From positions 1 to 64,000 of the forward strand of contig LXYH01000006.1 of the NCBI GenBank assembly GCA_001650895.1: 64,000 nucleotides of DNA, written 5' to 3'. Every line of letters starts with the position of its first letter. Within the stretch, counting starts at the first letter, position 1. This DNA comes from Rhodobacteraceae bacterium EhC02 (lineage in GTDB: Bacteria; Pseudomonadota; Alphaproteobacteria; Rhodobacterales; Rhodobacteraceae). Under the pieces are notes generated by a model. It worked only from the letters and a program-made list of their open reading frames with translations. It was not told the DNA's origin and ran no database searches. Of this stretch, positions 20,056 to 37,535 are shown one piece after another. The translations under genes were made by a program, and so were the position numbers.

Positions 20056-20105
20056 GCGAAGCACTCCCTGCGAAACTGTTGAAAGGACGGCGTGCGTGCA
20101 GCGGA

Positions 20106-20927: not shown

Positions 20928-22897
20928 TCTGCTGCCATCTTCTGCGTCGTGACGGGCTGCACCTTGGCGTCCCGGATCTCGAGCGTTGCACTGATGTATC
21001 CCTTGCGCCCGTCCTCATATGTCACTTCCGTGCGGGTGCTGATCTTGTCGGACCCGTCGTACAGCGCGGTGATCAGATCGTGGAACTTGTCCTCGACGAT
21101 GCGGCGGCGGACCTTGCGGGTGCGGGTCATTTCGCCGTCATCGGCATCCAGTTCCTTGTGCAGGATCAGGAAGCGATGGATCTGGCAGCCCGAGAGCATC
21201 GGGTCATCCGCGATCGACCGGTTCACTTCCTCGACATGGGCCTGCACCTGGGCCAGCACCTTGGGATGCCCGGCCAGTTCCTGATAGGAGGAATAGGCGA
21301 TGTTGTTGCGTTCGGCCCAGTTGCCCACCGCGCTGAGGTCGATGTTGATGAAGGCCATGCAGCGGTCGCGGCCATTGCCGAAAACAACTGCTTCCAGGAT
21401 GTTCGGGTAGAACTTCAGCTTGTTCTCGACATACTTGGGCGCGAACAGGCTGCCGTCGGCCATCTTGCCCACGTCCTTGGCCCGGTCGATGATCCGCAGG
21501 TGGCCCGATCCTTCCTCGATGAAGCCCGCGTCGCCAGTGGCGACCCAGCCTTCGGGATCCTTGGTGTCGGCGGTGCTTTCGGGGTTCTTGTAGTAGTATT
21601 CGAACACACCGGGGCTGCGGTAATACACCTCGCCATTGTCGCCGATCTTCAGCTCGACACCCGGTGCCGGCACGCCCACGGTATCCGAACGCACCTCGCC
21701 ATCGGGCTGCATGGTGATGAACACCGTCGCCTCGGTCTGGCCGTACAGCTGTTTCAGGTTGATCCCGAGGCTGCGATAGAAATCGAAGATCTCGGGGCCG
21801 ATCGCTTCGCCTGCGGTATAGCCGATGCGGACGCGGCTGAAACCAAGGGTGTTCTTCAGCGGCCCGTAGACGAACAGATCGCCCAGCTTGTACTTCATCC
21901 GGTCCATGAAACCCACGGGCTTGCCGTCCAGAATGGCGGGACCGACCTTGCGGGCGTGGGCCATGAAAGTGTCGAACAGCCATTTCTTCATCCGGCTGGC
22001 GTCTTCCATGCGGATCATGACGTTGGTCAGCTGGGTCTCGAAAACACGGGGCGGGGCAAAGTAATAGGTGGGACCGATCTCGCGCAGGTCGGTGACCATA
22101 GTCTCGGGGCTTTCGGGGCAGTTCACGCAGAACCCGGCCCAGTAGGCCTGCCCGACCGAGAAGATGAAATCGCCCACCCAGGCCATCGGCAGGTAGGCAA
22201 GGATTTCCTCGTCCGGGCCCAGCTTGTCGAAGTCCGACGAGTTATGCGCGCTTTCGATGATGTTGCGGTTGCTCAGCACCACACCCTTGGGCTTGCCGGT
22301 CGTGCCCGAGGTGTAAAGCATCACGCAGGTCGAGGACATGTCCAGCTTGGCCCGGCGCTTTTCCAGTTCGGGCGTGAACTCGTCACGCGCGGCATGGCCC
22401 TGCTCCTGCACATGGCTGAATTCATGCAGGCGGGAATGATCGTATTTCCGAAGCCCCCGCGGATCGAGGTAGATCATGTGTTCGAACTGGTGCAGGCGGT
22501 CCTGCACCTCGATCACCTTGTCGACCTGTTCCTGGTCCTCGACGATGATGAAGCGTGCACCGCAATGATCGAGGACATATGCCATCTCTTCGGCTGCAGA
22601 GTCCTGGTAAAGCGGCACGGGGACCGCACCCACGGACTGCGCCGCGACCATCGACCAATACAATTGCGGACGGTTGCTGCCGATGATGGCGACGAAATCG
22701 CCTTCGTTGACGCCAAGGTTTATCAGCCCAAGCGCGAAGTTATCCACTTCGCGCTGAACGTCCTTCCACGTCCAGGTCTGCCAGATGCCGAATTCCTTTT
22801 GGCGGAACGCGGGCTTGTCCGCGAACTTCTGGGCGTTGCGCTGCAACAGCGCCGGTATGGACACGAGTCCACCGGTCGCCTGTGACGACTGTGCCAA
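20924..22897 (-). CDS. AMP-forming acyl-CoA ligase (long-chain fatty acid-CoA ligase type)
   Basis: A 657-residue ANL-superfamily enzyme. The P-loop motif MLYTSGTTGKPKGVVLSN, the GQTEA motif and the STGD-like ATGDAGF segment are present. It would convert a carboxylic acid, CoA and ATP to acyl-CoA. I place the start at TTG 22897 because GGGAGGG lies 8 bases upstream and homology begins there; no ATG fits (the frame stays open to 22987). It is the first gene of the importer operon, which suggests that the imported acid is trapped as a CoA ester. Confidence 0.88.
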   Translation of the reverse strand: MAQSSQATGGLVSIPALLQRNAQKFADKPAFRQKEFGIWQTWTWKDVQREVDNFALGLINLGVNEGDFVAIIGSNRPQLYWSMVAAQSVGAVPVPLYQDSAAEEMAYVLDHCGARFIIVEDQEQVDKVIEVQDRLHQFEHMIYLDPRGLRKYDHSRLHEFSHVQEQGHAARDEFTPELEKRRAKLDMSSTCVMLYTSGTTGKPKGVVLSNRNIIESAHNSSDFDKLGPDEEILAYLPMAWVGDFIFSVGQAYWAGFCVNCPESPETMVTDLREIGPTYYFAPPRVFETQLTNVMIRMEDASRMKKWLFDTFMAHARKVGPAILDGKPVGFMDRMKYKLGDLFVYGPLKNTLGFSRVRIGYTAGEAIGPEIFDFYRSLGINLKQLYGQTEATVFITMQPDGEVRSDTVGVPAPGVELKIGDNGEVYYRSPGVFEYYYKNPESTADTKDPEGWVATGDAGFIEEGSGHLRIIDRAKDVGKMADGSLFAPKYVENKLKFYPNILEAVVFGNGRDRCMAFINIDLSAVGNWAERNNIAYSSYQELAGHPKVLAQVQAHVEEVNRSIADDPMLSGCQIHRFLILHKELDADDGEMTRTRKVRRRIVEDKFHDLITALYDGSDKISTRTEVTYEDGRKGYISATLEIRDAKVQPVTTQKMAAE

Positions 22898-23021
22898 ATC
22901 TTTCCCTCCCTTGCGCCCGTTCTCCCTCCGGGCCGGTGACCACCTTGATCGGCGATTCTTTACCGAGCTTCGATGGTGCACCTGCAAGGCTCTACGTCAA
23001 CTTTTTCCTGATGATTTCCCA

Positions 23022-23042
23022 ATTGTTACGAATTGTAACAAT
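23022..23042. promoter_or_regulatory. Palindromic operator candidate between importer operon and two-component genes
   Basis: ATTGTTAC-GAATT-GTAACAAT has perfect 8-bp arms. It lies in the 214-base divergent region, 70 bases before the kinase ATG and about 125 bases before the ligase start. Such a site would suit a dimeric regulator controlling both directions. Confidence 0.65.
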
Positions 23043-23111
23043 CGCAGGCCGGATCGGGCACTAGGCGGGCGCGGCTTGTGGTGCTAGCCATACCCGACCA
23101 GAGGACTGACG

Positions 23112-25034
23112 ATGACGACCGCACCGATCGACACTTCCGCGATGACCATGGCCGGGTTGAACCTGATCCAGCAGGCGCTGTCGATCTATGACAGCGACCT
23201 GCACCTCGTGGTATGCAATCGCCCCTTCCGCGAGATGTTCGACCTTCCGGTGGAATTGACGACGCCCGGTGCGCGCTTCGAGGATACGATCCGCTTTCTG
23301 GCGGAGCGGGGCGAATACGGACCGATCAACGACCTGACCGAAGCCGTGCGCATCCGCGTCGAACAGGCCCGCGCCTTCGAGCCGCATTACATGGAACGGG
23401 TGCGTCCCGACGGGCGCAGCATCAGCGTCGAAGGCTCGCCCCTGCCGCAGGGGGGATGGGTCACCGTCTACACGGACATCACCCCGACCAAGCGGCAGGA
23501 GGCCTTGTTGCGCGCAAGGTCCGAAGAGTTGAGCGACAAGGTGCTGGCCTATGCCGAGGAGTTGAGCGCCACCAACCGCAAGCTGGAGGCGACCATCACC
23601 GCGCTGGAGGAAGCCAAGCGCCAGTTGACCGAGACCGAGGCACGCACCCGCCAGACGACCGAGATGATGCCCGCGCATATCTCGCATGTCGGGCGCGACC
23701 GCTGCTACACCTTCTCGAACCGCAAACTGGGTGTCGTGATGCCGGGCCGGCAAACGAATATCCTGGGCCTGCCCATCCGGAAGGCGCTTGGCGAATCAGC
23801 CTATACCGCGATTCAGCCGCATCTGGACGCCGCGTTCTTCGGCACCGCGTCCGTGTTTGAATTCAATGACGAGGACAGCTCGCGCCGCATTCGCGCGGCC
23901 TTCACGCCGGACCGCGCGCCGGATGGACAGATCAATGGTGTCTACATCCTGTCGATGGACGTGACCGAAGAAAGCCAGGCCCGTAGCGCCCTGCAACAGA
24001 CGCGGCGGCGCGAAATGGCGGCCCAGTTGACCAGCGGCATGGCGCATGACTTTTCGAACCTGCTGACGATCATCCTGGGCAGCCAGTCGCGCCTGCAGCG
24101 CATGGACCTGCCAGCCGAGGCGCGCGACCTTGTGGCCGCGACACTGTCCGCGGCCCATCGCGGCGGGGCACTGCTGAACCGGATCGGGGACATCACCGGT
24201 GCCCGCGAATGGAACCCCACCACCGCCGACCTGCGCGCCGCCCTGTCCGATCTGGAAACGCTGGCCGCACCGGCCTTGCCGCCCGGTATCGCGCTGAGCA
24301 TCCACAACGCCATCCCGCATGATGCGCTGATGCTGGACACAGGCATGTTGCAGGATTCCCTGTTGAACCTGATCCTGAATGCGCGCGACGCCTGCGGCGC
24401 GACGGGCGATATCCGGCTTGAGGTGACCCCGGTGCAGAACACCTGGGCAGAGTTCACCGTCACAGACACGGGACCCGGCTTTTCGGAGGCTGCGCTTGAA
24501 CATGCACTCGAGCCGTTTTTCACCACCAAGGGTGGCGAAGGCACGGGGCTGGGGCTGGCCATGGTCTATGACATGGTCAAGCTTGCCGGCGGGCGCGTCG
24601 TGATCGGCAATACCGAACAGGGTGGCAAGGTCAGCCTGCGTCTGCCGCTGCGGCCTGCTGCCCTTGCGCTTTCGCCCGGCCTTGTGCTGCTGGTCGAAGA
24701 CAGTCCCGATCTGCGCGTCGGCATCCGCGAGATGCTGCGCGATTTCGGCCATGCGGTCATCGAAGCCGCAAGCGTGGACGAGGCGATGGCGCTGCTGGAT
24801 CAGGTGCCGGATATCGCGCTGATCCTGTCCGACATCACGCTCGAGGGGCATGAAACCGGGCTGGACCTGCTGGACCGTCTGCCCCCGGGCCATCCGCCTT
24901 GCCGGCTGATGACATCCTTGCCACGTGATCATCCCTATCACAAAAGCGCTGTCGCGCGGGTACCCGTGCTGATGAAACCATTCAGCGCCAGCGGCCTGTC
25001 CGCATTCCTGCAAGGCAGAGGCAAGACACCATGA
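23112..25034 (+). CDS. Cytoplasmic PAS-containing hybrid histidine kinase
   Basis: A 640-residue protein with no membrane segment. Domains in order: PAS (about 15-125, LIQQALSIYDSDLHLVVCNRPF), a coiled-coil linker (about 130-185), a second PAS (about 190-290), a DHp helix pair with GMAHDFSNLLTII (His312), an HATPase domain with NLILNARDA, DTGPGFSE and GTGLGLAMVYD, and a C-terminal receiver domain with Asp574 in LILSDITLEG. The next gene, a response regulator, overlaps its stop by 4 bases. Being divergent from the importer operon, it probably senses a related intracellular ligand. Confidence 0.92.
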   Translation: MTTAPIDTSAMTMAGLNLIQQALSIYDSDLHLVVCNRPFREMFDLPVELTTPGARFEDTIRFLAERGEYGPINDLTEAVRIRVEQARAFEPHYMERVRPDGRSISVEGSPLPQGGWVTVYTDITPTKRQEALLRARSEELSDKVLAYAEELSATNRKLEATITALEEAKRQLTETEARTRQTTEMMPAHISHVGRDRCYTFSNRKLGVVMPGRQTNILGLPIRKALGESAYTAIQPHLDAAFFGTASVFEFNDEDSSRRIRAAFTPDRAPDGQINGVYILSMDVTEESQARSALQQTRRREMAAQLTSGMAHDFSNLLTIILGSQSRLQRMDLPAEARDLVAATLSAAHRGGALLNRIGDITGAREWNPTTADLRAALSDLETLAAPALPPGIALSIHNAIPHDALMLDTGMLQDSLLNLILNARDACGATGDIRLEVTPVQNTWAEFTVTDTGPGFSEAALEHALEPFFTTKGGEGTGLGLAMVYDMVKLAGGRVVIGNTEQGGKVSLRLPLRPAALALSPGLVLLVEDSPDLRVGIREMLRDFGHAVIEAASVDEAMALLDQVPDIALILSDITLEGHETGLDLLDRLPPGHPPCRLMTSLPRDHPYHKSAVARVPVLMKPFSASGLSAFLQGRGKTP

Positions 25035-25735
25035 GCACACCACTGGTCACCATCCTCGATGACGAGCCCGCAATCCGCAACATGCTGGCCCATGCCCTGA
25101 CCGAGGCCGGATTCCGCACGATGAGCTTCGGTCGCGCCACCGAGTTCGAGGCCGCCCTGAAAACCGCAACCCCCGATATCTGCCTTGTGGACCTGTCGCT
25201 GCCGGATCGTGACGGGCTGACCCTGGTGCATCGCCTGGCGCTGGAACAGGGCGCCGTGGTCATCATCATCTCGGGTCGGGCGCAGGTGCAGGACCGTGTG
25301 ACCGGGCTGGAACTGGGGGCGGATGACTACATCATTAAGCCCTTCGATCCGGCCGAGGTCGTGGCCCGCATCCGTGCGCGTCTGCGCCGGGGCCAGCCCG
25401 TCACGCAGACCGGGCAGACTGCGTTGTTCAACGGCTGGACGGCCCATTTCGACCGGTATGCGCTTGAGGATGACAGCGGCGTCGAGACACCGTTTTCCCA
25501 TGCCGAAGGTGAAGTGCTGCGCCTGTTCCTCGAGCGGCCCAAGCGCCTGATCTCACGCGCGATGATGCAGGAGATATTGGGCGGTGCGGCCAGCGACAGT
25601 TTCGACCGGGCAATGGATGTGCGCATATCAAGGCTGCGGACAAAGCTGCGCGAAGACCCGAAAAACCCGCGCCTGATCAAGACGATCTATGGCGCCGGTT
25701 ACATCTTTCTGGGCGATGTGGCCTGGACCGGATAG
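25031..25735 (+). CDS. OmpR-family response regulator
   Basis: A 234-residue protein. A receiver domain (residues 1-120) has DDE at the N terminus, phosphoacceptor Asp54 in CLVDLSLPDRDG, and a KPF switch lysine. A winged-helix DNA-binding domain follows (about 135-230), with the family ending RLIKTIYGAGYIFLG. It overlaps the kinase gene as ATGA, so the two are made together. It is the obvious candidate to bind the palindrome at 23022-23042. Confidence 0.95.
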   Translation: MSTPLVTILDDEPAIRNMLAHALTEAGFRTMSFGRATEFEAALKTATPDICLVDLSLPDRDGLTLVHRLALEQGAVVIIISGRAQVQDRVTGLELGADDYIIKPFDPAEVVARIRARLRRGQPVTQTGQTALFNGWTAHFDRYALEDDSGVETPFSHAEGEVLRLFLERPKRLISRAMMQEILGGAASDSFDRAMDVRISRLRTKLREDPKNPRLIKTIYGAGYIFLGDVAWTG

Positions 25736-25746
25736 TCTGACCAGCG

Positions 25747-26952
25747 TCAGTGCGCCTTGCACAGGTCGGGCAAGGCGCGCGCCATGACCTCAAGGCCCGT
25801 CAGAAGATCGGCCTCGTCCGTATCCTCGGCAAAGGCATGGCTGATCCCGCCGATCGAGGGTACGAACATCATCGCGGCCGGCATAAGGGCCGCCACGTTG
25901 GTGGCGTCATGCAGCGCGCCCGATTGCATCTCGCGCCAGCGGCCGGGAACAAGGTCTTGCGCCGCCGCACCAAGTGCCGCGCGCAACCCGCGATCCATTG
26001 CGACAGGTTCCAGACCCAGCATGCCGGAAAAGGACAGGGCCATGCCGCGTTCCGCGGCAACCTCGGTTGCGGTCTGGCGGATCACGTCCTCCATCCGCTT
26101 GAGACGCCCGGTGTCGCCATCGCGCCACTGCATGGAAAAGGTGACGCGACCGGGAACGATCGAATGTGCGCCGGGATGCAGATCGACATGGCCGATGGTC
26201 CAGACGGATTGCGGCGTCACGACGTTGCGCAGCCTGTCGTTCAGCGCGGTGTTGAAGGCCGACAGCACCTGAAAGGCATCGCGGCGGCGGTGCATGGGCG
26301 TGGTGCCTGCATGGTTCTGTTCGCCCTCCAGCGTGATGGTCATGTCACGGATGCCGACGATATCGGTGACAACGCCAATCGCCTGCCCGGCCTCGTGCAG
26401 CCATGGCCCCTGTTCGATGTGGCATTCGACAAAGCCGGTGAACCGTGCGGGATCGATAGGTTCACCCGCCAGATGCGCCATGGCGGAACGGGCATCGGCA
26501 AAGGTGACGCCTGCGCTGTCCGTCAGCCTGTCGGCCTTGTCCAGAGGCAACTGGCCCGACCAGATCGCGCTGCCGGTGGTGACGCCAAAGCGCCCTTCCT
26601 CATCCTGGAAATTGGCCACGGATACCGCAGGGCCGCCGGCCTCTTGTGTGGCCCGCGCGATTTCCAGCGCCATGACCACGCCCAGCGCCCCGTCCAGCCA
26701 GCCGCCCTCGGGCTGGCTGTCGCTATGCGATCCCATCAGAAGCGACCGGCCCGGTGCCAAGCCGAAGAGGTTGCCAACCGTATCGAAGCGCGGCTCCAGC
26801 CCGGCGGCGTCCATCTGCCCTGCCAGCCATTCACGCGCGGCGATATCGGCACCCGAATAAGCCGGGCGCACCACGCCCTTGCCCACGCCGGACGCGCCGA
26901 ACTGCCGCAACGCATGCAGATCCTTGAGAAACCGTTCGCCGTTGACCTGCAT
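25747..26952 (-). CDS. M20-family amidohydrolase (allantoate amidohydrolase / N-carbamoyl-L-amino acid hydrolase type)
   Basis: A 401-residue metallohydrolase. Metal-binding motifs are visible: [42 protein letters not shown] and the C-terminal [11 protein letters not shown]. The family cleaves N-carbamoyl groups from allantoate, ureidoglycolate or carbamoyl amino acids. Allantoate would fit the purine-breakdown gene puuD elsewhere in the window, but that link is inference. AGGGGGTAATC supports the ATG at 26952; the open frame continues upstream without a better start. Confidence 0.88.
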
Positions 26953-27081
26953 GATTACCCCCTGTTCCCGCTGGAAGGCCACAAAACCGGGAATGGTCCG
27001 GCTTGTCCAGCCACCGCATTCGCGGTTGTCTTGGCTTGCCACGTGACCTAGGTCTGCAACGCATGCAGAGGAAGCGTTTCG

Positions 27082-27741
27082 ATGTCACAGATCACCCTTG
27101 TTCGCCATGGCCAGGCCCAGACCAAAGCACGTGACGAGACCGGGTATGACAGCCTGAGCCCGCTTGGCCATCAACAGGCCGCCTGGCTGGGGGAACATCT
27201 GCGGGACACGCGTGAACAGATCACCCGCGTCTATTGCGGCACGCTGATCCGTCACGTCGAAACGGCCACGGCGATGCAAGCGGGGCATTACGCCGAGATC
27301 GTGCAGGACGCGCGGCTGAACGAAATGCAATTCTTCACCCTGGCCCATCTGTTCAGCGAACAGCATGGCGTCGCATTGCCGCAATCGCGCGAAGGCTTCG
27401 TGGCCTACATGCCGCAGCTTCTGATGGCCTGGGAGGCCGGAACGATCGAAGAGGCCCCCGAAAGCTTTGACGATTTCCAGAACCGTGTGGGCGATGCGAT
27501 GGCCGATATCGGCATGGGCCGTGGACCTGCACTTGTCGTCACCTCGGGCGGGCTGATCGGGATGGTGTTGCGCCAGACCATGGGGCTGGGCACACCCGCC
27601 TTTGCGCGGGCCTGCATCGCGATCATGAACACCTCCGTGCATCGCCTGCACCGTCTGGGCACGGACATGGCCGTGACCCAGTTCAATGCCGTGCCCCATC
27701 TGGACCGGCCTGATCGTCAACACGCACAAACGCATCTTTAA
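27082..27741 (+). CDS. Histidine phosphatase-family protein
   Basis: A 219-residue protein of the phosphoglycerate-mutase-like superfamily. The catalytic [10 protein letters not shown] motif is at residues 5-14, [10 protein letters not shown] follows, and a second conserved segment [14 protein letters not shown] ends the fold. It lacks the long insertion of true phosphoglycerate mutase, so it is a phosphatase of unknown substrate. GAGGAAGC precedes the ATG. It is divergent from the M20 hydrolase and may be first in the transcript leading to the saccharopine genes, 56 bases downstream. Confidence 0.9.
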
Positions 27742-27797
27742 GCCGCCCCTGCCCTTGGCTATGGTGCGCGTGACACTTCCGCCGAAAGAACAGAACC

Positions 27798-28853
27798 ATG
27801 ACACATCTGTGGGTCCGCGCCGAACAGCGCGCGAACGAAGAACGGGTCGGCCTGACCCCCGAAGGCTGTGCCGCGCTGATCAAGGCGGGCATTCGCGTGA
27901 CAATCGAGGAAAGCGACGTACGCGCCATCGCCATCGACGGCTATCGTGCCGCTGGCGCTGCGATTGCCGCGCAGAACAGCTGGCCCGACGCGCCCGCCGA
28001 CGCGATCATCTTCGGGCTGAAGGAACTGCCAGAAGATGGCACGCCTTTGCCGCATCGCCACATCATGTTCGGCCATGCCTTCAAGGGGCAGCCTGCCGGT
28101 CAGGACCTTCTCAAGCGGTTCAAGGCTGGAAGCGGGACGCTTTATGACCTGGAGTACCTGGTCGATGAGAATGGTCGCCGCGTCGCCGCCTTTGGCTATT
28201 GGGCGGGTTTCGCGGGCGCCGCTGTCGCGCTGAAATGCTGGCTTGCACAGCAAGAGGGCGAGATCTGCGGACCCGTCGGCGTCTATGCCGGGCGTGACGC
28301 GCTGGTGGCAGACCTGACCGCTGCGATGGGCGACATCAAGGCAGAGCCCCCGCGCGCCATCGTCATCGGGGCCTTGGGGCGCGTTGGTACTGGTGCGTCC
28401 GACCTGTGCGAGGCGATGGGGATGCAGGTCACCCGCTGGGACATGGCCGAAACCGCCAGCGGCGGGCCATTTCCGCAGATCATGGAACAAGAGATCTTCC
28501 TGAACTGCATCCTGGCGCGGCCCGGCACGCCTGTTTTCGTGCCGGCGACGGCAACCACAGACCCGCGCACCCTGACCGTGATCGGCGACATCGCCTGCGA
28601 TCCGACCAGTGATTTCTCGCCCATCAAGGTCTATGACCGCACCACCACATGGGCCGAACCCGCGTTGCGGGTCCATGACACCCCCCCGCTGGATGTGACC
28701 GCGATCGACAACCTGCCCTCCATGCTGCCGGTTGAAAGCTCGCAGGATTACGCGGCCCAGCTTCTGCCGACACTTCTGGAACTGAATCACCTCGAAACCG
28801 GCGTCTGGGAGCGTGCGAAAGACACCTTCCTGACCCATCTGGCAAAGGTCTGA
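27798..28853 (+). CDS. Saccharopine dehydrogenase, lysine-forming type (LYS1-like)
   Basis: A 351-residue NAD-dependent enzyme resembling fungal Lys1, which interconverts saccharopine with lysine plus 2-oxoglutarate. The N-terminal alanine dehydrogenase-like region (WVRAEQRANEERVGLTPEGC) is followed by FGHAFKGQP and YDLEYLVDENGRRVAAFGYWAG, then a Rossmann segment AIVIGALGRVGTGA. It is 1 base from the SemiSWEET gene and in the same operon as a LYS9-like enzyme. In some bacteria this pair runs lysine breakdown under osmotic stress. Confidence 0.92.
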   Translation: MTHLWVRAEQRANEERVGLTPEGCAALIKAGIRVTIEESDVRAIAIDGYRAAGAAIAAQNSWPDAPADAIIFGLKELPEDGTPLPHRHIMFGHAFKGQPAGQDLLKRFKAGSGTLYDLEYLVDENGRRVAAFGYWAGFAGAAVALKCWLAQQEGEICGPVGVYAGRDALVADLTAAMGDIKAEPPRAIVIGALGRVGTGASDLCEAMGMQVTRWDMAETASGGPFPQIMEQEIFLNCILARPGTPVFVPATATTDPRTLTVIGDIACDPTSDFSPIKVYDRTTTWAEPALRVHDTPPLDVTAIDNLPSMLPVESSQDYAAQLLPTLLELNHLETGVWERAKDTFLTHLAKV

Positions 28854-28854
28854 C

Positions 28855-29106
28855 ATGACGCCACTCTACATCGGCTACGCGGCCGCCATACTGGGCACGA
28901 TCTGCTGGATCCCTCAGGCCCTGCAGGTCTGGCGCACGCGTGACACCCGCAGCCTGTCACTTGTCGCGCAGGTCCTGTTTCTGATCACCGTGTCGCTATG
29001 GCTGGCTTACGGGATCATGATCGTCGACTGGCCGCTGATCCTGGCCAATATCGTGTCGGTGACGGCGATGATTGCCATCGTCACGGCCAAGCTGAAATTC
29101 AAGTAA
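28855..29106 (+). CDS. SemiSWEET-type transporter
   Basis: An 83-residue protein with three membrane helices and the PQ-loop motif in the first (CWIPQALQVWRTRDTRSLS). This is the half-size bacterial relative of SWEET sugar carriers, which dimerises to form a pore. It begins 1 base after the lysine-forming saccharopine dehydrogenase stop and ends 14 bases before the second dehydrogenase. That placement suggests transport of an amino acid or osmolyte linked to the pathway, not necessarily sugar. Confidence 0.9.
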   Translation: MTPLYIGYAAAILGTICWIPQALQVWRTRDTRSLSLVAQVLFLITVSLWLAYGIMIVDWPLILANIVSVTAMIAIVTAKLKFK

Positions 29107-29120
29107 GGAAAGGAAAGCCC

Positions 29121-30266
29121 ATGACCATCCACTGGTGCGGCACCGGCCTGTCGGCCATCCCCGGCCTGCGTCGCCTGATCGAGGCGGGGCATGATGTCAC
29201 CGTCTGGAACCGTTCCGTCGACAAGGCACGCAAGACGGTGGGCGATCTGACCGACCGGATCAAGGCCTTCGACATCGATGCACTTGGCGCCGAGCTGGCC
29301 AAAGGCGATGTGGTCGTGTCGATGCTGCCCGCAGACTGGCATGTGCCGCTGGCGAAACTCTGCCTTGAGAAGGACGCGCATTTCGTGTCCTCGTCCTATA
29401 TCGCGCCGGAAATGCGGGCGCTGGACGATACGTTCCGCGACAAGGGCCTGTGTTCGGTCAACGAAGTGGGTCTTGATCCGGGCATCGACCACCTGATGGC
29501 GCATCATCTTGTCGCCGAATATCGCGCCTCGGATGCCTATGATGCGGCGAATGCGATCTCGTTCCTGTCTTATTGCGGCGGTGTTCCGAAGATCCCGAAC
29601 GCCTTCCGCTACAAGTTCAGCTGGTCACCGCTGGGCGTGCTGAAGGCGCTGCGCTCGCCCTCGCGGTCAATCCGCAACTTCTCGGAACTGCGGGTGGATC
29701 GTCCGTGGAACGCGCTCAGCAGCTATGACGCGCCCTTGCCAACGCCCGAGACATTCGAGGTCTATCCGAACCGCGATTCGATCCCCTTCATGGAGGATTA
29801 CCGTTTCGATCCCGCCTGGCCGGTGCGCGATTTCGTGCGCGGCACGTTGCGGCTGAACGGCTGGTCGGATGCCTGGGCCGATGTCTTCGCCGAGATCGAG
29901 ACACTGACCGGCCCCGAGGGCGATGCAAGGCTGAAGGACATGTCCGATCAGTTCTGGTCGGAAAACGCCTATGACGAGGGCGAGCCTGACCGGGTGGTGC
30001 TTTGCGTGGAACTGAAGGCCGAAAAGGATGGCAAGACCGTCTGGCACAAGTCCTATGTGATGGATGCCTGGGGCGATGCGCGCGGCACGGCGATGGCGCG
30101 GCTTGTGTCGATCCCTGTTTCCCTGGCGGTCGAAGCCGTTCTGGCCCGCGAGATCCCGGCCGGCGTATCCGCCGCACCCTCAGATCCGCGACTTGTGACG
30201 CGCTGGATGGCCGAGATCGACAAACTGGCGCAGCATCTGCAGATCGTGGACCGCAACCCGGCCTGA
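29121..30266 (+). CDS. Saccharopine dehydrogenase, glutamate-forming type (LYS9-like)
   Basis: A 381-residue enzyme. The N-terminal Rossmann region is IHWCGTGLSAIPGLRRLIEAGHDVTVWNRS, and SVNEVGLDPGIDHLMAHHLV matches the saccharopine reductase family. It would convert saccharopine to glutamate and aminoadipate semialdehyde, completing lysine breakdown with the upstream gene. AAGGAAAGGAAAG is the ribosome site. A strong terminator closes the operon at 30289-30325. Confidence 0.92.
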   Translation: MTIHWCGTGLSAIPGLRRLIEAGHDVTVWNRSVDKARKTVGDLTDRIKAFDIDALGAELAKGDVVVSMLPADWHVPLAKLCLEKDAHFVSSSYIAPEMRALDDTFRDKGLCSVNEVGLDPGIDHLMAHHLVAEYRASDAYDAANAISFLSYCGGVPKIPNAFRYKFSWSPLGVLKALRSPSRSIRNFSELRVDRPWNALSSYDAPLPTPETFEVYPNRDSIPFMEDYRFDPAWPVRDFVRGTLRLNGWSDAWADVFAEIETLTGPEGDARLKDMSDQFWSENAYDEGEPDRVVLCVELKAEKDGKTVWHKSYVMDAWGDARGTAMARLVSIPVSLAVEAVLAREIPAGVSAAPSDPRLVTRWMAEIDKLAQHLQIVDRNPA

Positions 30267-30288
30267 TCCAGCGCTGATGTCCAGACGG

Positions 30289-30325
30289 AAAAGCCCCGCC
30301 CGGGATGACCTGGGCGGGGCTTTTT
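30289..30325. terminator. Bidirectional terminator
   Basis: AAAAGCCCCGCCC-N10-GGGCGGGGCTTTTT. It ends the saccharopine operon and can also end the convergent secreted-protein gene at 30383. Confidence 0.9.
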
Positions 30326-30382
30326 GAACAACGGGGAGCTGTTCATCGACGCCGGGGAGGAGGCCGGCATCGGGAAGGACAC

Positions 30383-30691
30383 TTAGCGCGGTGCGAAGGT
30401 CACGGCGGTGTTGTTGGCCGGTGCGTTGAAGCTGTAGACAGTCACCTGGCCGTCTTCTGCAATCGCCTGCTCGCGGGGCTCGAGGATCAGGGCTGCGTCG
30501 ACCAGCAGTTCGGTACCTGCGGTGGCCGAGATCATGTCGCTGCCCGAGATGCCGCGATCACGTTCGAACACGGTGACGGTGGCGGCTTCGGCGCGGGTGC
30601 CCAGAATGTCATTGCTGGTTGCGATGTCACCTGCATAGGCGACGGATCCACAGGTAGCAGCGGCGATGGCGGTCATGATGATGCGGTTCAT
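30383..30691 (-). CDS. Small secreted protein of unknown function
   Basis: A 102-residue protein with a Sec signal peptide (MNRIIMTAIAAATCGSVAYAG) and an acidic mature part of about 80 residues containing no cysteine. The start at 30691 is preferred because GGAG lies 7 bases upstream and the signal peptide begins there; the frame is open to 30763. I do not recognise a domain. It has its own terminator and a long AT-rich upstream region, so it is probably a monocistronic gene. Confidence 0.75.
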   Translation of the reverse strand: MNRIIMTAIAAATCGSVAYAGDIATSNDILGTRAEAATVTVFERDRGISGSDMISATAGTELLVDAALILEPREQAIAEDGQVTVYSFNAPANNTAVTFAPR

Positions 30692-31013
30692 GGTGTAACT
30701 CCGTTTGTTTCGGTTACGATCGTTTTTGATCTGAACCCAATATGACGTCGCACCAGCGCACATTCAAAACACAGCTGCTCAAGGGAATGTGTGACCGCGC
30801 CATCTTGAAGGCTGAAACTTTTCCCAGAGACGAAAAACCAGAATTTTTACTGTTTTAATACAAATACTTCTGAAACTTTTTTTCCGTGCAGCCTGAAATG
30901 TTGCTAACGACTCACGTGAATGGCATCGCAAGGAGAGGGAAATCGTGAGGCGGGACAGCCCCCTGCCTTGAGGTCAATTATCGAAAAGCCGCACTCGCTT
31001 GGTGCAAAAACGC
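30692..31013. other. Intergenic region, AT-rich in the middle
   Basis: About 320 bases without a supported gene. AT-rich sequence at 30820-30890 may hold the promoter of the secreted-protein gene on the minus strand. On the plus strand AAGGAGAGGG at 30930-30939 precedes a nine-codon GTG reading frame (30945-30971), which is recorded as a finding only. Confidence 0.5.
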
Positions 31014-31036
31014 ACAAAACCTGCAAAAAGGCAGGC
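31014..31036 (-). terminator. Terminator after the DUF3775 gene
   Basis: On the minus strand GCCTGC-CTTTTT-GCAGGTTTTG forms a short stem and T-rich tail about 20 bases after the stop codon. Confidence 0.6.
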
Positions 31037-31056
31037 AATTCCAGTCCACGGATTGC

Positions 31057-31383
31057 CTAACCGCCTCGAATCAAATCATCTTCTTCGTCGATGGCAGACA
31101 GCCCAAGGGCATCAAGCCCGTTTTCAAGATGATCGGACAGATGCGGCGTGCCCAACAGGTAATCGGCGGTTGGTGTCGTGGCTTCCCGGGTGGCGGTGCG
31201 GATCGCCTCTTGCAGTTCTTCAGGCTCGAAAGAGCCGCGACCGATCCACATCAGGGCGACCAGACTGGTCTGTTCCTCGTCACTCAGCCGATCGATGAAG
31301 GCACGCAATTCGCCCTCGGCGCGGTTCAACTCGCGCGACATCAGAACGACCTGGGCGATCTTGTTGACTGATATCTCCAGCAT
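31057..31383 (-). CDS. DUF3775 domain protein
   Basis: A 108-residue, acidic, mostly helical protein beginning MLEISVNKIAQVVLMSRELNRAEGELRAFIDRL. The segment SDEEQTSLVALMWIGRGSF and the acidic C terminus match DUF3775, a family of small soluble proteins common in Rhodobacterales and related orders. No function is known to me. It lies 68 bases after the SDR gene on the same strand, so it could be a weakly coupled last gene of that operon. Confidence 0.85.
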   Translation of the reverse strand: MLEISVNKIAQVVLMSRELNRAEGELRAFIDRLSDEEQTSLVALMWIGRGSFEPEELQEAIRTATREATTPTADYLLGTPHLSDHLENGLDALGLSAIDEEDDLIRGG

Positions 31384-31451
31384 GGCAGGGATCCTCCTGT
31401 TGGCACTATGCCAGACAGTGGTGATCCCTCCAAACGGAAGCGTCCTTGATC

Positions 31452-32186
31452 TCAGGCAAAGAGGCGGTAATACATCCAGTCCGGCATGAACTGGGACAAC
31501 CGGAACAGCCAGCTGAACACGGTGGGAAAGCTGCGCTTGAAGCGGGTTTCGTCGTTCATCAACTCGAACATGTCCTGCGCGGCCTCTTCCGGCTCCATCA
31601 GGAATGGCATCCGGAATTCGTTCTTGTCGGTCAGGCGGGTCCGGATGAAACCGGGGTTAGCCACCTGCACACGCACGCCGGTCTTGCGCAGATCGGCATA
31701 GAGGCTTTCGGCCAGGGACATCGTGCCGGCCTTCGACGCGGCGTAACCGATCGCGCCGGGCAGGCCGCGAAACCCGGACAGTGATCCGGTGATGACGATA
31801 TGCCCGGAGTCACGTTCCACCATCTGCGGGATCACGGCACCGACAGCGCGCACGGCGCCGGTGAAATTGATGTCGGCCATCGCCTCGGCCTGATCGGCGT
31901 TCCATTTCTGCGCGGGCATCGGCCAATAGACCCCGGCCAGGTATACCATCCCGTCGATCTGCCCAACCTGCGCGGCCGCCTTTTCGACGCTGACCCGGTC
32001 GCCGACATCGACAGGCACGAAAGAAGCCTTGCCCGGCAATTCGGCCACCAGCGCCCTTAGACGATCCTCATTGCGGGCGGAAACGATCACTTCCACACCG
32101 GCGCTGCTCAGCTTGTGGGCAAGAGCCGCGCCCAGCCCCTCGCTTGCGCCGATCAGCCAGTACCGCTTGCCCTGCCAGTTCATCAT
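31452..32186 (-). CDS. Short-chain dehydrogenase/reductase
   Basis: A 244-residue SDR. It has the cofactor motif GASEGLGAALA, an SARN segment, active-site Ser in ITGSLSG and the YxxxK pair in GYAASKAG. Its start overlaps the DUF3833 stop (ATGA). The gene order SDR, DUF3833, MFS, DUF1365, FAD oxidase next to rpoE-chrR recalls the RSP1087-1091 group of Rhodobacter sphaeroides, which belongs to the singlet-oxygen regulon. The substrate is unknown. Confidence 0.92.
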   Translation of the reverse strand: MMNWQGKRYWLIGASEGLGAALAHKLSSAGVEVIVSARNEDRLRALVAELPGKASFVPVDVGDRVSVEKAAAQVGQIDGMVYLAGVYWPMPAQKWNADQAEAMADINFTGAVRAVGAVIPQMVERDSGHIVITGSLSGFRGLPGAIGYAASKAGTMSLAESLYADLRKTGVRVQVANPGFIRTRLTDKNEFRMPFLMEPEEAAQDMFELMNDETRFKRSFPTVFSWLFRLSQFMPDWMYYRLFA

Positions 32187-32749
32187 TCCGCATCCACCTT
32201 GCGCATTGTCGCGACCAGCTCGGCCACGGGAATCCCGAATTTGCGAAACTGGCTGCGGTTCATCACCGTGCCGTTGGGCGCAAGATACATCCAGTCCACG
32301 GTATCGAGGACATGGCCGCCCGATTCCTCGGGCAAACGGATCCGGTATTTCAACTGCACGGCCGAACCCGACATCTGACCGCTTCCCGGTGTCACAAGAT
32401 CGTCGGCATCCGCCTTGATCTGCCCGTCATTGCCGATTTCCAGACGCCATTCGCGATCCTGCGTTGCACCGCTGTCATACATGAAATGCTCGCGCATCAC
32501 GCCACGGTTTCCGTCCCACCGCGCTTCGAACTTGCCGACGAAGCGCGATGTGACGCGGCCCAGCGGGCCATAGATCACGCCTTCGCACAGGATCGGGCCG
32601 TTCAGATGTTCGCGCAGGTCAAACTGGGGCGCGCCACCTTCATAATCTTCCGGGGCCTGGGAGGTGAATGACCAGAACCGTGCCTTGGCCCAAAGCGCGC
32701 CAAGGACCAGAGCCATTCCAAGAAGCATGAAGAGAAGAGAATCCGCCAT
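32183..32749 (-). CDS. DUF3833 family protein
   Basis: A 188-residue protein with one N-terminal hydrophobic segment (about residues 4-20), so membrane-anchored or secreted. A beta-rich domain follows, including YGPLGRVTSRFVGKFEARWDG and GSAVQLKYRIRLP, matching DUF3833. The family has no assigned biochemical role but usually travels with SDR and cyclopropane-synthase-type lipid genes. The ATG directly follows the MFS stop, with GAGGACTAG as ribosome site. Confidence 0.85.
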   Translation of the reverse strand: MADSLLFMLLGMALVLGALWAKARFWSFTSQAPEDYEGGAPQFDLREHLNGPILCEGVIYGPLGRVTSRFVGKFEARWDGNRGVMREHFMYDSGATQDREWRLEIGNDGQIKADADDLVTPGSGQMSGSAVQLKYRIRLPEESGGHVLDTVDWMYLAPNGTVMNRSQFRKFGIPVAELVATMRKVDAE

Positions 32750-33982
32750 CTAGTCCTCTTTCCAGTTGGTTGTGGCCAGCAGGCCAATGGCAAGCAGTTT
32801 CAGAAGGCAGGGCACAAGCCCGTAAGCCAGGCTGAGCGCCAGAAGTGCGTCATCGGAATTGTCGGTCCCGGCGCGAAAGCCGGCGGCTTCCAAGGCGGGC
32901 AGCAGGGCAATCGCGGCAAAGGCCAGGGACAGTTTCGACACGAAGGACCACAGCCCGAAAGCGCCGGATGCACCCGGCGCGATCCGCGCCATGCGTGCGG
33001 CGAAGATCGCGGGCAAAAGCGTCATGTCCGCGCCCAGCGCCGCACCCGACGCAATGCAGATGACCGCGAAGGCCAGTGTATCACCAGCCCCAAGGGTCAA
33101 GGCAAAGCCAAAGGCCGAAATGGCAAGGACCATGCCCGCCATGAGCACCCTTTTGGGTCCATGGACCTCGGCCGCCCTGCCCCAGAACGGGGTTGCAACG
33201 GCTGCCGACAGAAAGAACAGCAACAGGAACGGGCCTTCCCAGCCGGGGGCGGCAAGCCTGCTTTCGACGAAGAACAGGAACAGGGTGGAACTGACGGCGA
33301 CGGGCGCCGCGTTGACCAATGCGATAAGCAACAGCCTCCGCGCGAGGGGATCGCGCAGGACCGGCAGCATGCCCGCCTCGGCTGTGTCGTGCGTGCCCGC
33401 CCACTGATGACGCATCAGCCAGACGGCGCCGAGGCCAAGAATGGCAAAGCCAAGGGCAAAGCCCTCGAACCCGCCCAGGGCCACGGGCGCCACGGCTGCC
33501 ACGCAAACACCCAGAAGGGCGCCGGTCTCACGCCACCGGGCCAGCCTGATGTGGCCTGCGGGCCCCATCGTTCCGGCGGTCTGCACACCCTGAGCATAGA
33601 AACAGATGGTCAGGAAACTGAAAGCCGAAAAGACGCCCGCCAGCATCAGCGCGAACCAGATCAGCGGCGCGACCGGCGGTGTGACGGCGAACAGCCCCAA
33701 CATTGACGCCACCATGAGGGCAACGCCACCCGCAACAGCCAGCGCGCGCTGGTGCCGCAATGCACCGGCAAGCCGTCCCAGCAGTGGATCCTGAACCACG
33801 TCAAACAGGCGCAGGCCGAATAGAACAGCACCCAAGGCTGCCAGCGACACGCCGTATTCATCCACATAAACCTTGGGGGCGTGGATGTAGATCGGCAATC
33901 CGGCCGCCGCCAGAAGGGCCGCAAAGACCCCGTAGGCTGGCAGTGCGGGCGCCGCGGGCAATGTCGCGCTCAGCGTGTTCAC
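32750..33982 (-). CDS. MFS transporter (glycoside-pentoside-hexuronide symporter-like)
   Basis: A 410-residue protein with about twelve membrane helices. It has a LAALGAVLFGLRLFDVVQDPLLGRLAG region like the GPH/MelB branch of MFS. The start is a GTG overlapping the DUF1365 stop (GTGA), with AGAGGTCAGCAG upstream. Its place between putative furan fatty acid genes and DUF3833/SDR suggests transport of a lipid-related or stress-related solute rather than sugar; this is inference. Confidence 0.88.
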   Translation of the reverse strand: MNTLSATLPAAPALPAYGVFAALLAAAGLPIYIHAPKVYVDEYGVSLAALGAVLFGLRLFDVVQDPLLGRLAGALRHQRALAVAGGVALMVASMLGLFAVTPPVAPLIWFALMLAGVFSAFSFLTICFYAQGVQTAGTMGPAGHIRLARWRETGALLGVCVAAVAPVALGGFEGFALGFAILGLGAVWLMRHQWAGTHDTAEAGMLPVLRDPLARRLLLIALVNAAPVAVSSTLFLFFVESRLAAPGWEGPFLLLFFLSAAVATPFWGRAAEVHGPKRVLMAGMVLAISAFGFALTLGAGDTLAFAVICIASGAALGADMTLLPAIFAARMARIAPGASGAFGLWSFVSKLSLAFAAIALLPALEAAGFRAGTDNSDDALLALSLAYGLVPCLLKLLAIGLLATTNWKED

Positions 33983-34734
33983 CTGCTGACCTCTTCAATG
34001 GGCGGTTCGGGGCGGGGTCGATAGGCCACGCCTTTCCACCACAGTTTGACCGCTTGCCAGTGGATGAGCGCCAGAACCCGCCGCGATCCGAAGGGGCGCC
34101 GCAAGGCGGCACCCAGGATGCCCATGCTGGTCAGGGGTTTGCGCGCGCCGACAAGTGTCGCGATCACGCCGCCATTTCCGCCGGTATAGTCGATCCAGAT
34201 CCCGATCCGGTCCGCGCGGATATCAAAGCGGAACTCATACCCGCCCTCGACCGGCTGAAAGGGGCTGACATGCATCAGCTTGGTGGCGCGCATCCGGTCC
34301 TCGGCCGTGATCGGGCCGTGATCATCGCGATGCACCAGGTAGGAATGACGATCTCCGAAGGTGTTCGTCACCTCGGCGATGACGACGCGCAGATCATCCT
34401 GCCCATCGCGGCAGAGCCAGAAGGACACGGGGTTGAACACATGCCCCATGACACGCGGCTGTGTCAGAAGTTCGATCCGGGCCGGTTCCTCGATCCCATG
34501 CGCGGCCAGCACATCGCGCACCCAATGGGCACCGCGACCCTGCTTGGGCAGCCCGCCATGATCGCTGTCCCAGACCGAGGTCAGGTTGCCACGATTGCGC
34601 CCGAAAAGGGTGGGCGCGCCCTGCGGATGCTCTGCATCCAGCAACAGGTAGTCCACCCCGTAGCGGAAGGCGTTTTCCACGCCACCCTTGCGCCCATGCC
34701 AGGTATGGCCGGCGATATGGTCGATCCTTGTCAC
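33979..34734 (-). CDS. DUF1365 protein, candidate UfaO of furan fatty acid synthesis
   Basis: A 251-residue protein with the DUF1365 hallmarks HTWHGRKGGVENAFRYGVDYLLLD, TQPRVMGHVFNPVSFWLC and KLMHVSPFQPVEGGYEF. In Rhodobacter sphaeroides the equivalent next to the flavin enzyme (RSP1090) is reported, from my recall, as UfaO, needed to insert oxygen in making methylated furan fatty acids. The start is a GTG that overlaps the upstream stop (GTGA). It is the second gene of the operon. Confidence 0.82.
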   Translation of the reverse strand: MTRIDHIAGHTWHGRKGGVENAFRYGVDYLLLDAEHPQGAPTLFGRNRGNLTSVWDSDHGGLPKQGRGAHWVRDVLAAHGIEEPARIELLTQPRVMGHVFNPVSFWLCRDGQDDLRVVIAEVTNTFGDRHSYLVHRDDHGPITAEDRMRATKLMHVSPFQPVEGGYEFRFDIRADRIGIWIDYTGGNGGVIATLVGARKPLTSMGILGAALRRPFGSRRVLALIHWQAVKLWWKGVAYRPRPEPPIEEVSR

Positions 34735-36029
34735 TGGGCGGCCACCAGTGCCACGTTGTTGCGCGACAGCGCCTCGACCACGTCCACGGCGCTGGCCAGC
34801 CCGTCCTCGTGGAAGCCGTGACGCATCCAGGCACCGCAGAACCATGTGTTGCGCGTCCCGTTCGCCGCGCGCACCCGCTCCTGTGCCGCAAGCGCCGCCA
34901 TGTCATAGACCGGATGGCGCAGTGTGACCTGGTCATAGATCAGGTCTTCGCGGATGGAACGGGTGCTGTTCAGCGTGACGAAATGCGGATCATCCTGCGG
35001 GATCGGCTGCAGCGAGTTCATCCAGTAGGTCAGGTCGATCTTGTCGGTGTCCTTGTCCATGATCTCGGTATAGTTCCAGGACGACCAGACCACCTTGCGC
35101 TGGGGCATGACGGCAGGATCGGCATGCAGCACGATATCATTGGGCTGATAGGCGATTGCGCCCAGGTTTGCCTTTTCCTCTGGCGTGGAATCGGCCAGCA
35201 GGCGCAGGGTGTCGTCGGAATGGGTGGCAAAGATCACCTCGTCGAAGGCTTCCCATTCGCCGCCCTGCACCTTGATCTCGGCACCCAGATGCGGACGGCG
35301 GACGGCGTCAACCGGCGTTCCCAGGCGGAATGTCACGCCCTGCGCACGCATCGCATCGCCCAGGCGGCGCACATATTCGACCGACCCGCCCTGCACGGTG
35401 AACCACTGATGCTGGCCCGTCGTGTTCAGAAGCGCGTGGTTTTCAAAGAACTGGATCATCGCATGGGCCGGGAAGTCCATGATCTGTTCGACCGGCGTGG
35501 ACCAGATCGCACCCGAGAGCGGCAGAAGATAGTAATCGCGGAACCAGTCGCCCGTCCCAAGCTGTTCCAGGAATTCACCGGTCGTCAGGCTGCGGTCCTG
35601 TGCCACGACAAGGGCCTGTGCGTTGAACTTCAGGATATCGCGCACCATGCCCAGGAATTTCGGGTTCACGATGTTGCGCTTCTGCGCGAAGAGCGCCGAA
35701 AGGCTGGTCAGCGCATATTCCAGCTGCCCCCCCTTGAGGGAGGCGCCAAAGCTCATGTTCGACTTCACCACCGGCACATTCAGGCGGTCGAACAGTGCCG
35801 CCATATGTGGATAGTTGGCATAGTTGAACACGATGAAGCCGGTATCGACCGGCTGGTCACCATTCTTGCCGGCAACGATGGTGCGGGCATGGCCGCCCAG
35901 TCTTGGTTCGGCTTCGAACAGGGTTACATTATGGGTATCGGCCAACATGTGCGCCGCCCCCATGCCTGAAATTCCTGCTCCGATGACGGCAATTTTTCTT
36001 GGGGCAACGCGGCCCGCTTCGAATGGCAT
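34731..36029 (-). CDS. FAD-dependent oxidase/desaturase, candidate UfaD
   Basis: A 432-residue amine-oxidase-fold flavoprotein. The N-terminal dinucleotide motif is IAVIGAGISGMGAAHML, then EAEPRLGGHARTI, and WSTPVEQIMDFPAHAMIQFF is typical of the family next to DUF1365. RSP1091 of Rhodobacter sphaeroides occupies the same position and is recalled as UfaD, the desaturase of 11-methyl fatty acids in furan lipid synthesis. MPFEAG is chosen as start; GGAG lies 10 bases upstream. It is divergent from rpoE, which probably controls it. Confidence 0.82.
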   Translation of the reverse strand: MPFEAGRVAPRKIAVIGAGISGMGAAHMLADTHNVTLFEAEPRLGGHARTIVAGKNGDQPVDTGFIVFNYANYPHMAALFDRLNVPVVKSNMSFGASLKGGQLEYALTSLSALFAQKRNIVNPKFLGMVRDILKFNAQALVVAQDRSLTTGEFLEQLGTGDWFRDYYLLPLSGAIWSTPVEQIMDFPAHAMIQFFENHALLNTTGQHQWFTVQGGSVEYVRRLGDAMRAQGVTFRLGTPVDAVRRPHLGAEIKVQGGEWEAFDEVIFATHSDDTLRLLADSTPEEKANLGAIAYQPNDIVLHADPAVMPQRKVVWSSWNYTEIMDKDTDKIDLTYWMNSLQPIPQDDPHFVTLNSTRSIREDLIYDQVTLRHPVYDMAALAAQERVRAANGTRNTWFCGAWMRHGFHEDGLASAVDVVEALSRNNVALVAAQ

Positions 36030-36124
36030 GTGGGTATGACTCCGGTCGACGTGAATTCGAATTTTGATGGGAATACGCAGTAGATCGCGTTTTGGATGAT
36101 TTACAGAAAAAATCACATGCGCGG

Positions 36125-36154
36125 TGATCCAGACGCCGCATGCCCCCGTAATGA
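36125..36154 (+). promoter_or_regulatory. Candidate RpoE-type promoter of rpoE-chrR
   Basis: TGATCC (36125-36130), an 18-base spacer and TAATGA (36149-36154). The -35 TGATCC is the element recognised by the group IV sigma factor RpoE in Rhodobacter sphaeroides, so rpoE would be autoregulated. Transcription would begin near 36160, giving a leader of about 110 bases. Confidence 0.6.
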
Positions 36155-36270
36155 TCGGTATGTTAAACTTGGTCGACCCTTCGGATGCAAATGTCGCCTC
36201 GTCCCCGCCCGCCCTGCGTGGTAGGACTGTGGCAAAAGCAGATTTGTCCGCGAAGGCGAAGCCATTGGCC

Positions 36271-36816
36271 ATGAAGACAAAATACGATCCAACCGACTGG
36301 ATCACCCATATTGCCCGGATCAGGGAAGACCAGGACCAGGCGGCTTTCGCCGAACTGTTCCAGTACTTCGCGCCACGGGTGAAGGCATTTCTGATGCGAT
36401 CCGGGGCTGATGCAACCCTGGCAGAAGAATGCACACAGGAGGTCATGGCGACGCTCTGGCAGAAGGCGCATCTGTTCGATGCGTCCCGCGCCTCGGTTGC
36501 TACCTGGGTGTTCACGATCGCACGGAACCGTAAGATTGACGCGCTGCGCAAACAGCGGCGCCCCGAACCCGAAGACCTCGACTGGGGTCCCGAAGAAGAG
36601 CCGGATCAGGAGGACATCCTGAGCCTGCAACAGGAAAGCGAACAACTGGGGCGCGCGATCGCCGCCCTGCCCGATAAACAGAGGGAACTGATCGAAAAGG
36701 CCTATTTCGGCGATTTGTCGCATAGCGAGATCGCAGAACAGACCGGGTTGCCCCTTGGCACGATCAAATCCCGCATCAGATTGGCGTTGGACAGGCTTCG
36801 CCACGCAATGAAGTGA
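36271..36816 (+). CDS. rpoE: RpoE, ECF (group IV) sigma factor of the singlet-oxygen response
   Basis: A 181-residue sigma factor. Region 2 has AFAELFQYFAPRVKAFLMRSG, AEECTQEVMATLWQKA and TWVFTIARNRKIDALR. Region 4 has LPDKQRELIEKAYFGDLSHSEIAEQTGLPLGTIKSRIRLALDRLR. This is the ECF11-type RpoE of Rhodobacter, freed from ChrR by singlet oxygen. MKTKYDPTDW is taken as start by family length; the frame is open from an ATG at 36161. The stop overlaps a possible GTG of chrR. Confidence 0.93.
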   Translation: MKTKYDPTDWITHIARIREDQDQAAFAELFQYFAPRVKAFLMRSGADATLAEECTQEVMATLWQKAHLFDASRASVATWVFTIARNRKIDALRKQRRPEPEDLDWGPEEEPDQEDILSLQQESEQLGRAIAALPDKQRELIEKAYFGDLSHSEIAEQTGLPLGTIKSRIRLALDRLRHAMK

Positions 36817-36824
36817 TAATAAAG

Positions 36825-37481: not shown

Positions 37482-37504
37482 CACGGCGGCACATTTCAAC
37501 GCAT

Positions 37505-37532
37505 GGGGCGGTCCACAGGGGCCGCCCTTTTT
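37505..37532 (+). terminator. Terminator after chrR
   Basis: GGGGCGG-N10-CCGCCC-TTTTT, 24 bases after the chrR stop and just before the convergent rmuC stop. Confidence 0.8.
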
Positions 37533-37535
37533 CGT

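Follow-up and report, generated by a model that had tools for sequence, protein, structure and literature searches.

The window, which is the whole stretch of 64,000 nucleotides from Rhodobacteraceae bacterium EhC02 analysed here, contains three codirectional genes in the order LKR, SemiSWEET, and SDH (Table 1), with gaps of 1 base between the first and second genes and 14 bases between the second and third. The original prediction, made from the sequence alone, had given these genes with the same sizes and gaps, and had named the outer two as saccharopine dehydrogenases and the middle one as a SemiSWEET; all of this was confirmed. Over its full length, the LKR product was homologous to the NAD+-dependent, L-lysine-forming saccharopine dehydrogenase of yeast (E 1.8e-77; residues 4-351 aligned with 14-375). 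The solved structures 2q99, 2qrj, and 3ugk matched residues 4-351 with E values of about 2e-77, and the product scored 90.5 bits with AlaDh_PNT_N. The SDH product matched the fungal saccharopine reductase [NADP+, L-glutamate-forming] 1e5l with E 8.2e-43, and both Sacchrp_dh_NADP and Sacchrp_dh_C (141 bits) were above the cut-off.

Table 1. Features of the three-gene locus, with positions in the window
Feature	Position	Strand	Basis
LKR gene (NAD+, L-lysine-forming saccharopine dehydrogenase; yeast Lys1 homologue), 351 aa	27798..28853	+	homology, domains
SemiSWEET gene, GTxCWxPQ clade, 83 aa, three transmembrane helices	28855..29106	+	family score, fold
Spacer, 14 bases, with a purine-rich ribosome-binding-like stretch 5' of the third gene	29107..29120	+	direct sequence reading
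SDH gene (NADP+, L-glutamate-forming saccharopine dehydrogenase), 381 aa, ATG at 29121	29121..30266	+	homology, domains
Candidate intrinsic terminator, AAAGCCCCGCCC ... GGGCGGGGCTTTTT	30290..30325	+	by eye

The candidate terminator likely would close the three-gene unit; it was absent from the automated terminator scan, in which the loop limit was 8 bases, whereas the loop here is about 10 bases. A sigma-70-like promoter was not found in the scan of 27000-30600. Rfam gave no matches at 20000-40000; thus, no known riboswitch is present in that region. The genome of the window has a strong lysA match (473.8 bits; cut-off 297.9), so that lysine probably comes from the diaminopimelate route and the LKR-SDH pair would be catabolic, which suggests that the pair works here in the direction of lysine degradation.

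Elsewhere in the window, a hydantoinase/carbamoylase-family amidase is encoded at 25747-27042 (minus strand; TIGR01879, 283.5 bits, cut-off 204), with a hybrid sensor kinase and then a response regulator at 23112-25735 (plus strand; by sequence reading) upstream of the amidase, and a conserved DUF3775 protein is encoded at 31057-31383 (minus strand; 109 bits, cut-off 27). By reading, the genome also has two polyamine routes, namely, a homospermidine synthase and a carboxynorspermidine decarboxylase/dehydrogenase pair; the loci (L225, G000:C20, around 42370-42789; and L226, G000:C23, around 260401-261993) have saccharopine-dehydrogenase-like domains.

The 83-residue protein scored 83.8 bits with the NF037968 SemiSWEET_2 model (cut-off 80), 28.0 bits with MtN3_slv (cut-off 23.7), and 29.8 bits with PQ-loop (cut-off 22), and matched LbSemiSWEET (4qnc) with E 2.7e-14. 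Its AlphaFold2 model is a three-helix bundle (mean pLDDT 93.1), in which helix 1 breaks directly N-terminal to P20-Q21, the PQ hinge. In a fold search with this model, the top solved matches were SemiSWEETs, with TM-scores by query length of up to 0.88. It is the only SemiSWEET with a useful score in the genome (E 0.6 for the second match). We also considered the relative scores of the PQ-loop and MtN3 Pfam models as a pointer to amino-acid cargo and rejected it because control SemiSWEETs behave alike: the clade of the window protein, described below, is no nearer to the PQ-loop model than the controls are, and it scores lower than the controls on both models.

For the family survey, 248 genomes, one per genus code, were each searched with all three window proteins. 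SemiSWEET matches were obtained in 10 genomes, LKR matches in 154, and SDH matches in 111; the pair counts rest on the LKR matches listed, which cover 149 of the 154 genomes. Both enzymes were present in 102 of these; their genes were same-strand neighbours in 101 and on separate contigs in one. In 94 of the 101 adjacent pairs, the gap was 4-166 bases long without an insert. The gap was 263-282 bases long in the other seven, and a SemiSWEET filled all seven, being the sole type of insert among the 101 pairs. The other three of the 10 SemiSWEET matches were one hisD locus and two distant sequences (36-37% identity) located elsewhere. Thus, the enzyme pair is common, and the SemiSWEET is a minority insert that is dispensable for the pathway.

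Seen from the carrier side, by contrast, the link to this slot is tight. A scan with the seven slot carriers as queries, covering one genome per species, gave 69 loci: 57 had LKR, the carrier, and SDH in order, one had LKR and the carrier at a contig end, one had the carrier and SDH only, and 10 had neither enzyme. Among 244 genomes sampled across the order, a carrier of the window's type was found in 17, and 16 of the 17, the window included, were in the LKR-SDH slot; the seventeenth was a hisD locus. This sample and the family survey overlap in two genomes with a carrier in the LKR-SDH slot (G000 and G238). None of the short flanks of the 29 control SemiSWEETs had LKR, SDH, or hisD next to the gene. 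With 57 of 69 loci and 16 of 17 order-wide carriers in the slot, the association is strong and beyond chance. Conservation of the three-gene order, which had been proposed earlier as a check, therefore held when counted by carriers but not when counted by enzyme pairs. A plasmid search gave 398 matching records, all with less than 60% identity, and none of the best 25 had a rhodobacterial host by name.

Of the 10 loci with neither enzyme, two from Paracoccus (L061 and L078) had hisD directly upstream of the carrier. Among the 121 genomes of the genus Paracoccus that were searched, the carrier was found in six, and in all six it was located between hisD and the UPF0262 gene, very close to both (L009 in G023, and L234-L238 in five more genomes of the genus); the identity of hisD and UPF0262 was confirmed by Pfam in L009. 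These carriers form one group (support 90) inside the clade. The genome that contains the window has hisD and the UPF0262 gene as neighbours with no carrier between them (L239).

The other eight outlying clade loci are in neither the LKR-SDH slot nor the hisD slot. Four loci from Pseudovibrio adjoin a GNAT gene and an NAD-glutamate dehydrogenase gene; of the rest, one is from Roseibium, two face genes for U32 peptidases, and one follows a BKACE gene. For the outlying contexts, Pfam was applied to one locus per kind, and the others were read by eye. In the last case (L080:77-2303), the clade SemiSWEET lies about 20 bases after the BKACE (beta-keto acid cleavage) gene, together with a class-III aminotransferase gene; this single case may be a third context of the amino-acid type.

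The tight coupling to two soluble enzymes that act in series would also fit a membrane anchor or assembly factor, which is not mainly a transporter and keeps the two dehydrogenases close to the membrane or to one another. We consider this very improbable, as clade members also occur elsewhere, most LKR-SDH pairs exist without the carrier, and the protein has the full SemiSWEET fold with constrained hinge, pocket, and gate positions.

We then compared residues between 76 clade carriers (66 from the lysine slot and 10 from outside it) and the 29 controls, which were other SemiSWEETs from the class (30 sequences, from which the window row was removed). Seven rows that had been fetched twice or were cut (L016, L033, L039, L041, L043, L053, and L060) stay among the 66, so that this count includes a few near-copies; they were excluded from the trees, the distance test, and the identity list. 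The pocket and gate roles of the compared sites were taken from passages of PMC4309421 and PMC5972207. As described there, the pocket of EcSemiSWEET comprises Thr15, Trp50, and Asn66, its inner gate Phe19, Met39, Tyr40, and Phe43, and its outer gate Tyr53, Arg57, and Asp59 (PMC4309421); the pocket of LbSemiSWEET comprises Thr13, Trp48, and Asn64 (Jia et al., PMC5972207).

The clade, which is alphaproteobacterial, separated from the controls with a support of 98 in a tree built from no more than 81 columns, and P and Q of the PQ hinge were kept in 76/76 clade carriers. At the pocket Thr site (Lb Thr13), Gly was found in 74 of the 76 carriers, including the window protein, and Ser in two; 24 of the 29 controls had Thr, and none had Gly. 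The pocket Thr binds sugar hydroxyls and is typical of SemiSWEETs, but is not strictly defining. The gate Phe site (Phe17) was occupied by Trp in all of the clade carriers and in 1/29 controls. At the gate Tyr site, 70 clade carriers had Asn and six had Gln, as in the window protein, whereas neither residue was found in the controls (0/29). The main sugar-contact residues, Trp49 and Asn65 (Lb Trp48 and Asn64), were kept in 76/76. In 56 of the 66 lysine-slot carriers, the outer-gate Asp was present without the Arg partner found in LbSemiSWEET and EcSemiSWEET, and the other 10 had Ala; the unpaired acidic residue could favour a cationic cargo.

In hisD-slot carriers that were added subsequently, the gate Tyr site was Thr in two and the pocket site was Ser in one (read by eye); thus, the signature is not absolute. 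It belongs to the clade and not to the lysine slot, as 10 of the 76 carriers are outside the slot, two of them beside hisD and eight in neither slot.

An ordinary SemiSWEET for sugars or small polyols, which is in the slot only because co-expression there is convenient or inserts are tolerated, would agree with the retention of the pocket Trp and Asn in every clade carrier, with the many LKR-SDH pairs that lack a carrier, and with the varied contexts of other SemiSWEETs (in our own loci and in passages of PMC5972207). We regard such a cargo as unlikely here. No other gene was seen in the slot of the 101 pairs, nearly all of the order-wide carriers (16/17) are in this slot, and the second slot is again in an amino-acid dehydrogenase operon. 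Moreover, three residues of the substrate path differ from those of the sugar-tested proteins, and, within their short flanks, 0/29 control SemiSWEETs adjoin any of these dehydrogenase genes.

To follow the carrier on the tree of the enzymes, we used 149 LKR-SDH pairs, of which 57 had the carrier; 92 of the 94 insert-free pairs were retrieved, and two that were cut at contig ends (G207 and G236) were left out. The presence of the carrier takes 17 changes on this tree, at least 13 of which are forced by starred branches. Its distribution there is patchy, and we rejected the idea that it entered the slot once and was then inherited vertically; the tree cannot separate gain from loss. We looked for SemiSWEET remnants in 22 of the 94 insert-free loci, most of them among the longest gaps. 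In none did a reading frame exceed the best score from 20 shuffled sequences, and loss of the carrier by decay thus found no support in these loci.

Distances between carriers correlated with those between enzymes (0.51; none of 2000 permutations was as high), which would point to only partial co-inheritance. In Leisingera (L032 and L044), LKR and SDH were 93% and 95% identical and the carriers 71% identical, and in Shimia (L025 and L038) the values were 84% and 88% for the enzymes and 54% for the carriers. The reverse case was also seen: L067 and L178 shared 89% identity in the carrier, and 76% and 69% in the enzymes. We read this pattern as repeated gain or exchange of carriers at one slot, in which carrier lineages appear to have been swapped; the low identities of the Shimia carriers could also be due to fast divergence. 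Twenty of the 24 pairs listed were close pairs. The carrier dN/dS was 0-0.11 in 19 of them and 0.113 in the twentieth (Thalassovita, L047 and L057), and the carrier gene is under purifying selection with strong constraint.

Some database labels of the loci deserve mention. L043, labelled as the actinobacterium Nocardioides marinus, carries a rhodobacterial cassette, and the label looks wrong. L035, L036, and L039, labelled as Opitutaceae and Flavobacteriia, hold rhodobacterial genes and are probably binning errors; L036 and L039 have one contig name under two organism names, and L035, which has no LKR upstream, may be a chimera.

Our own reading, tentative and somewhat short of probable, is that the clade SemiSWEET is a passive amino-acid carrier, for which the sequences and gene neighbourhoods suggest L-lysine as the most likely cargo here and histidine in the Paracoccus hisD operon. 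Amino-acid cargo is favoured because there are two amino-acid slots, the substrate path is changed, and the relatives include PQLC2, LAAT-1, and Ypq1-3. The SemiSWEET presumably works as a homodimer, through which the solute would cross the inner membrane down its gradient. LKR and SDH would convert lysine and 2-oxoglutarate into saccharopine, and then saccharopine into glutamate and aminoadipate semialdehyde; as the carrier gene is located between the two, the carrier and the enzymes would be made together. L-lysine may then enter for degradation, or leave when in excess, and the sister carriers of the hisD operon may do likewise for histidine. Because the membrane potential would pull a cationic cargo inward, lysine uptake for breakdown is the simpler direction; overflow export of lysine is a possible alternative.

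The original prediction had taken the gene context to point to a cargo from this amino-acid pathway. The conserved order among carriers, the altered pocket, and the hisD slot bear this out in part, but the 94/101 pairs without the carrier and the eight clade loci in neither slot stand against an amino-acid cargo, as does the retention of Trp49 and Asn65. Further points against our reading are that the signature marks the clade and not the lysine slot, that 10 of the 66 lysine-slot carriers lack the acidic outer-gate residue, that the clade is no nearer than the controls to the PQ-loop Pfam model, that PQ-loop lysine carriers have seven helices instead of three, and that lysine is reportedly not degraded via saccharopine in Phaeobacter inhibens (passages of PMC5653290).

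The cargo list in that prediction had also included later products of the pathway. A carrier of saccharopine, of aminoadipate semialdehyde or its ring form piperideine-6-carboxylate, of pipecolate, or of aminoadipate would serve as an overflow valve or an osmolyte route, and its gene sits precisely between the genes of the enzymes that form and consume saccharopine. Passages of the literature report that lysine catabolites are osmolytes in Ruegeria pomeroyi (PMC4334477) and that a cured Phaeobacter strain accumulates pipecolate (PMC5653290). We consider such a cargo quite unlikely, since the hisD slot of the same clade has no such intermediate in common, and saccharopine would be large and charged for the small pocket. 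As for the osmolyte idea, the published link between lysine catabolism and salt in R. pomeroyi agrees with it, but the route preferred there at high salt is that of lysine dehydrogenase and not that of saccharopine (passages of PMC4334477). Lysine is thus the most likely member of the list, and nothing favours saccharopine, aminoadipate semialdehyde, or pipecolate over it.

The arrangement itself was already known in one strain. Jia et al. (2018, PMC5972207) printed a SemiSWEET between saccharopine dehydrogenase genes for Leisingera sp. ANG1 (A0A0B4DPF1), and passages of that paper suggest a role in lysine metabolism and call the enzyme genes two subunits. The ANG1 locus (L068) has LKR, SemiSWEET, and SDH in order, as in the window. 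Among the open-licence papers searched, this was the only one in which SemiSWEET and saccharopine appeared together, and SemiSWEET and histidinol dehydrogenase were not found together in any of them. The distribution, the slot counts, the clade, the pocket change, and the hisD slot, all given here, are absent from the passages of PMC5972207 and of the other papers cited. According to the same source, nothing is known about the physiological function of bacterial SemiSWEETs. The two conserved amino-acid slots and the three linked changes of the path now give a short testable list, that is, lysine, histidine, and the residues.

The saccharopine pathway of LKR and SDH is shared with R. pomeroyi, a member of the same bacterial order, in which lysine catabolism is linked to salt (passages of PMC4334477). 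Compared with the solved SemiSWEETs, LbSemiSWEET (4qnc), EcSemiSWEET (4x5m), TySemiSWEET (4rng), and BjSemiSWEET (9kax), the window protein shares the fold, the PQ hinge, a gate Tyr, and the Trp and Asn of the pocket. It differs from them in having Gly for the pocket Thr, Trp for the gate Phe/Tyr/Leu, Gln (Asn in most relatives) for the gate Tyr/Phe, and Ile for the outer-gate Arg of the Lb and Ec proteins.

A wider proposal, possible but less likely than not, is that a SemiSWEET subclade moved from sugars to amino acids and gave a GTxCWxPQ lysine carrier in the LKR-SDH slot and a histidine carrier in the hisD slot. With three helices, such a bacterial protein would be a minimal equivalent of the PQ-loop carriers that move Lys, Arg, or His in eukaryotes, and it would have passed between lineages while keeping its places in the operons. 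If so, the SWEET/PQ-loop group would include amino-acid transport even among its smallest members, and lysine breakdown in abundant marine bacteria would be linked to a passive carrier for lysine. PQ-loop cationic amino-acid carriers have seven helices with two PQ motifs. The window protein, with 83 residues, three membrane helices, and one PQ motif, does not have this architecture, and it had no close sequence match among PQ-loop carriers (cystinosin at E 0.58). PQLC2, LAAT-1, and Ypq1-3 are eukaryotic proteins of seven helices, but they belong to the same superfamily as the window SemiSWEET, and passive movement of Lys, Arg, or His has been reported for them (passages of PMC7440668).
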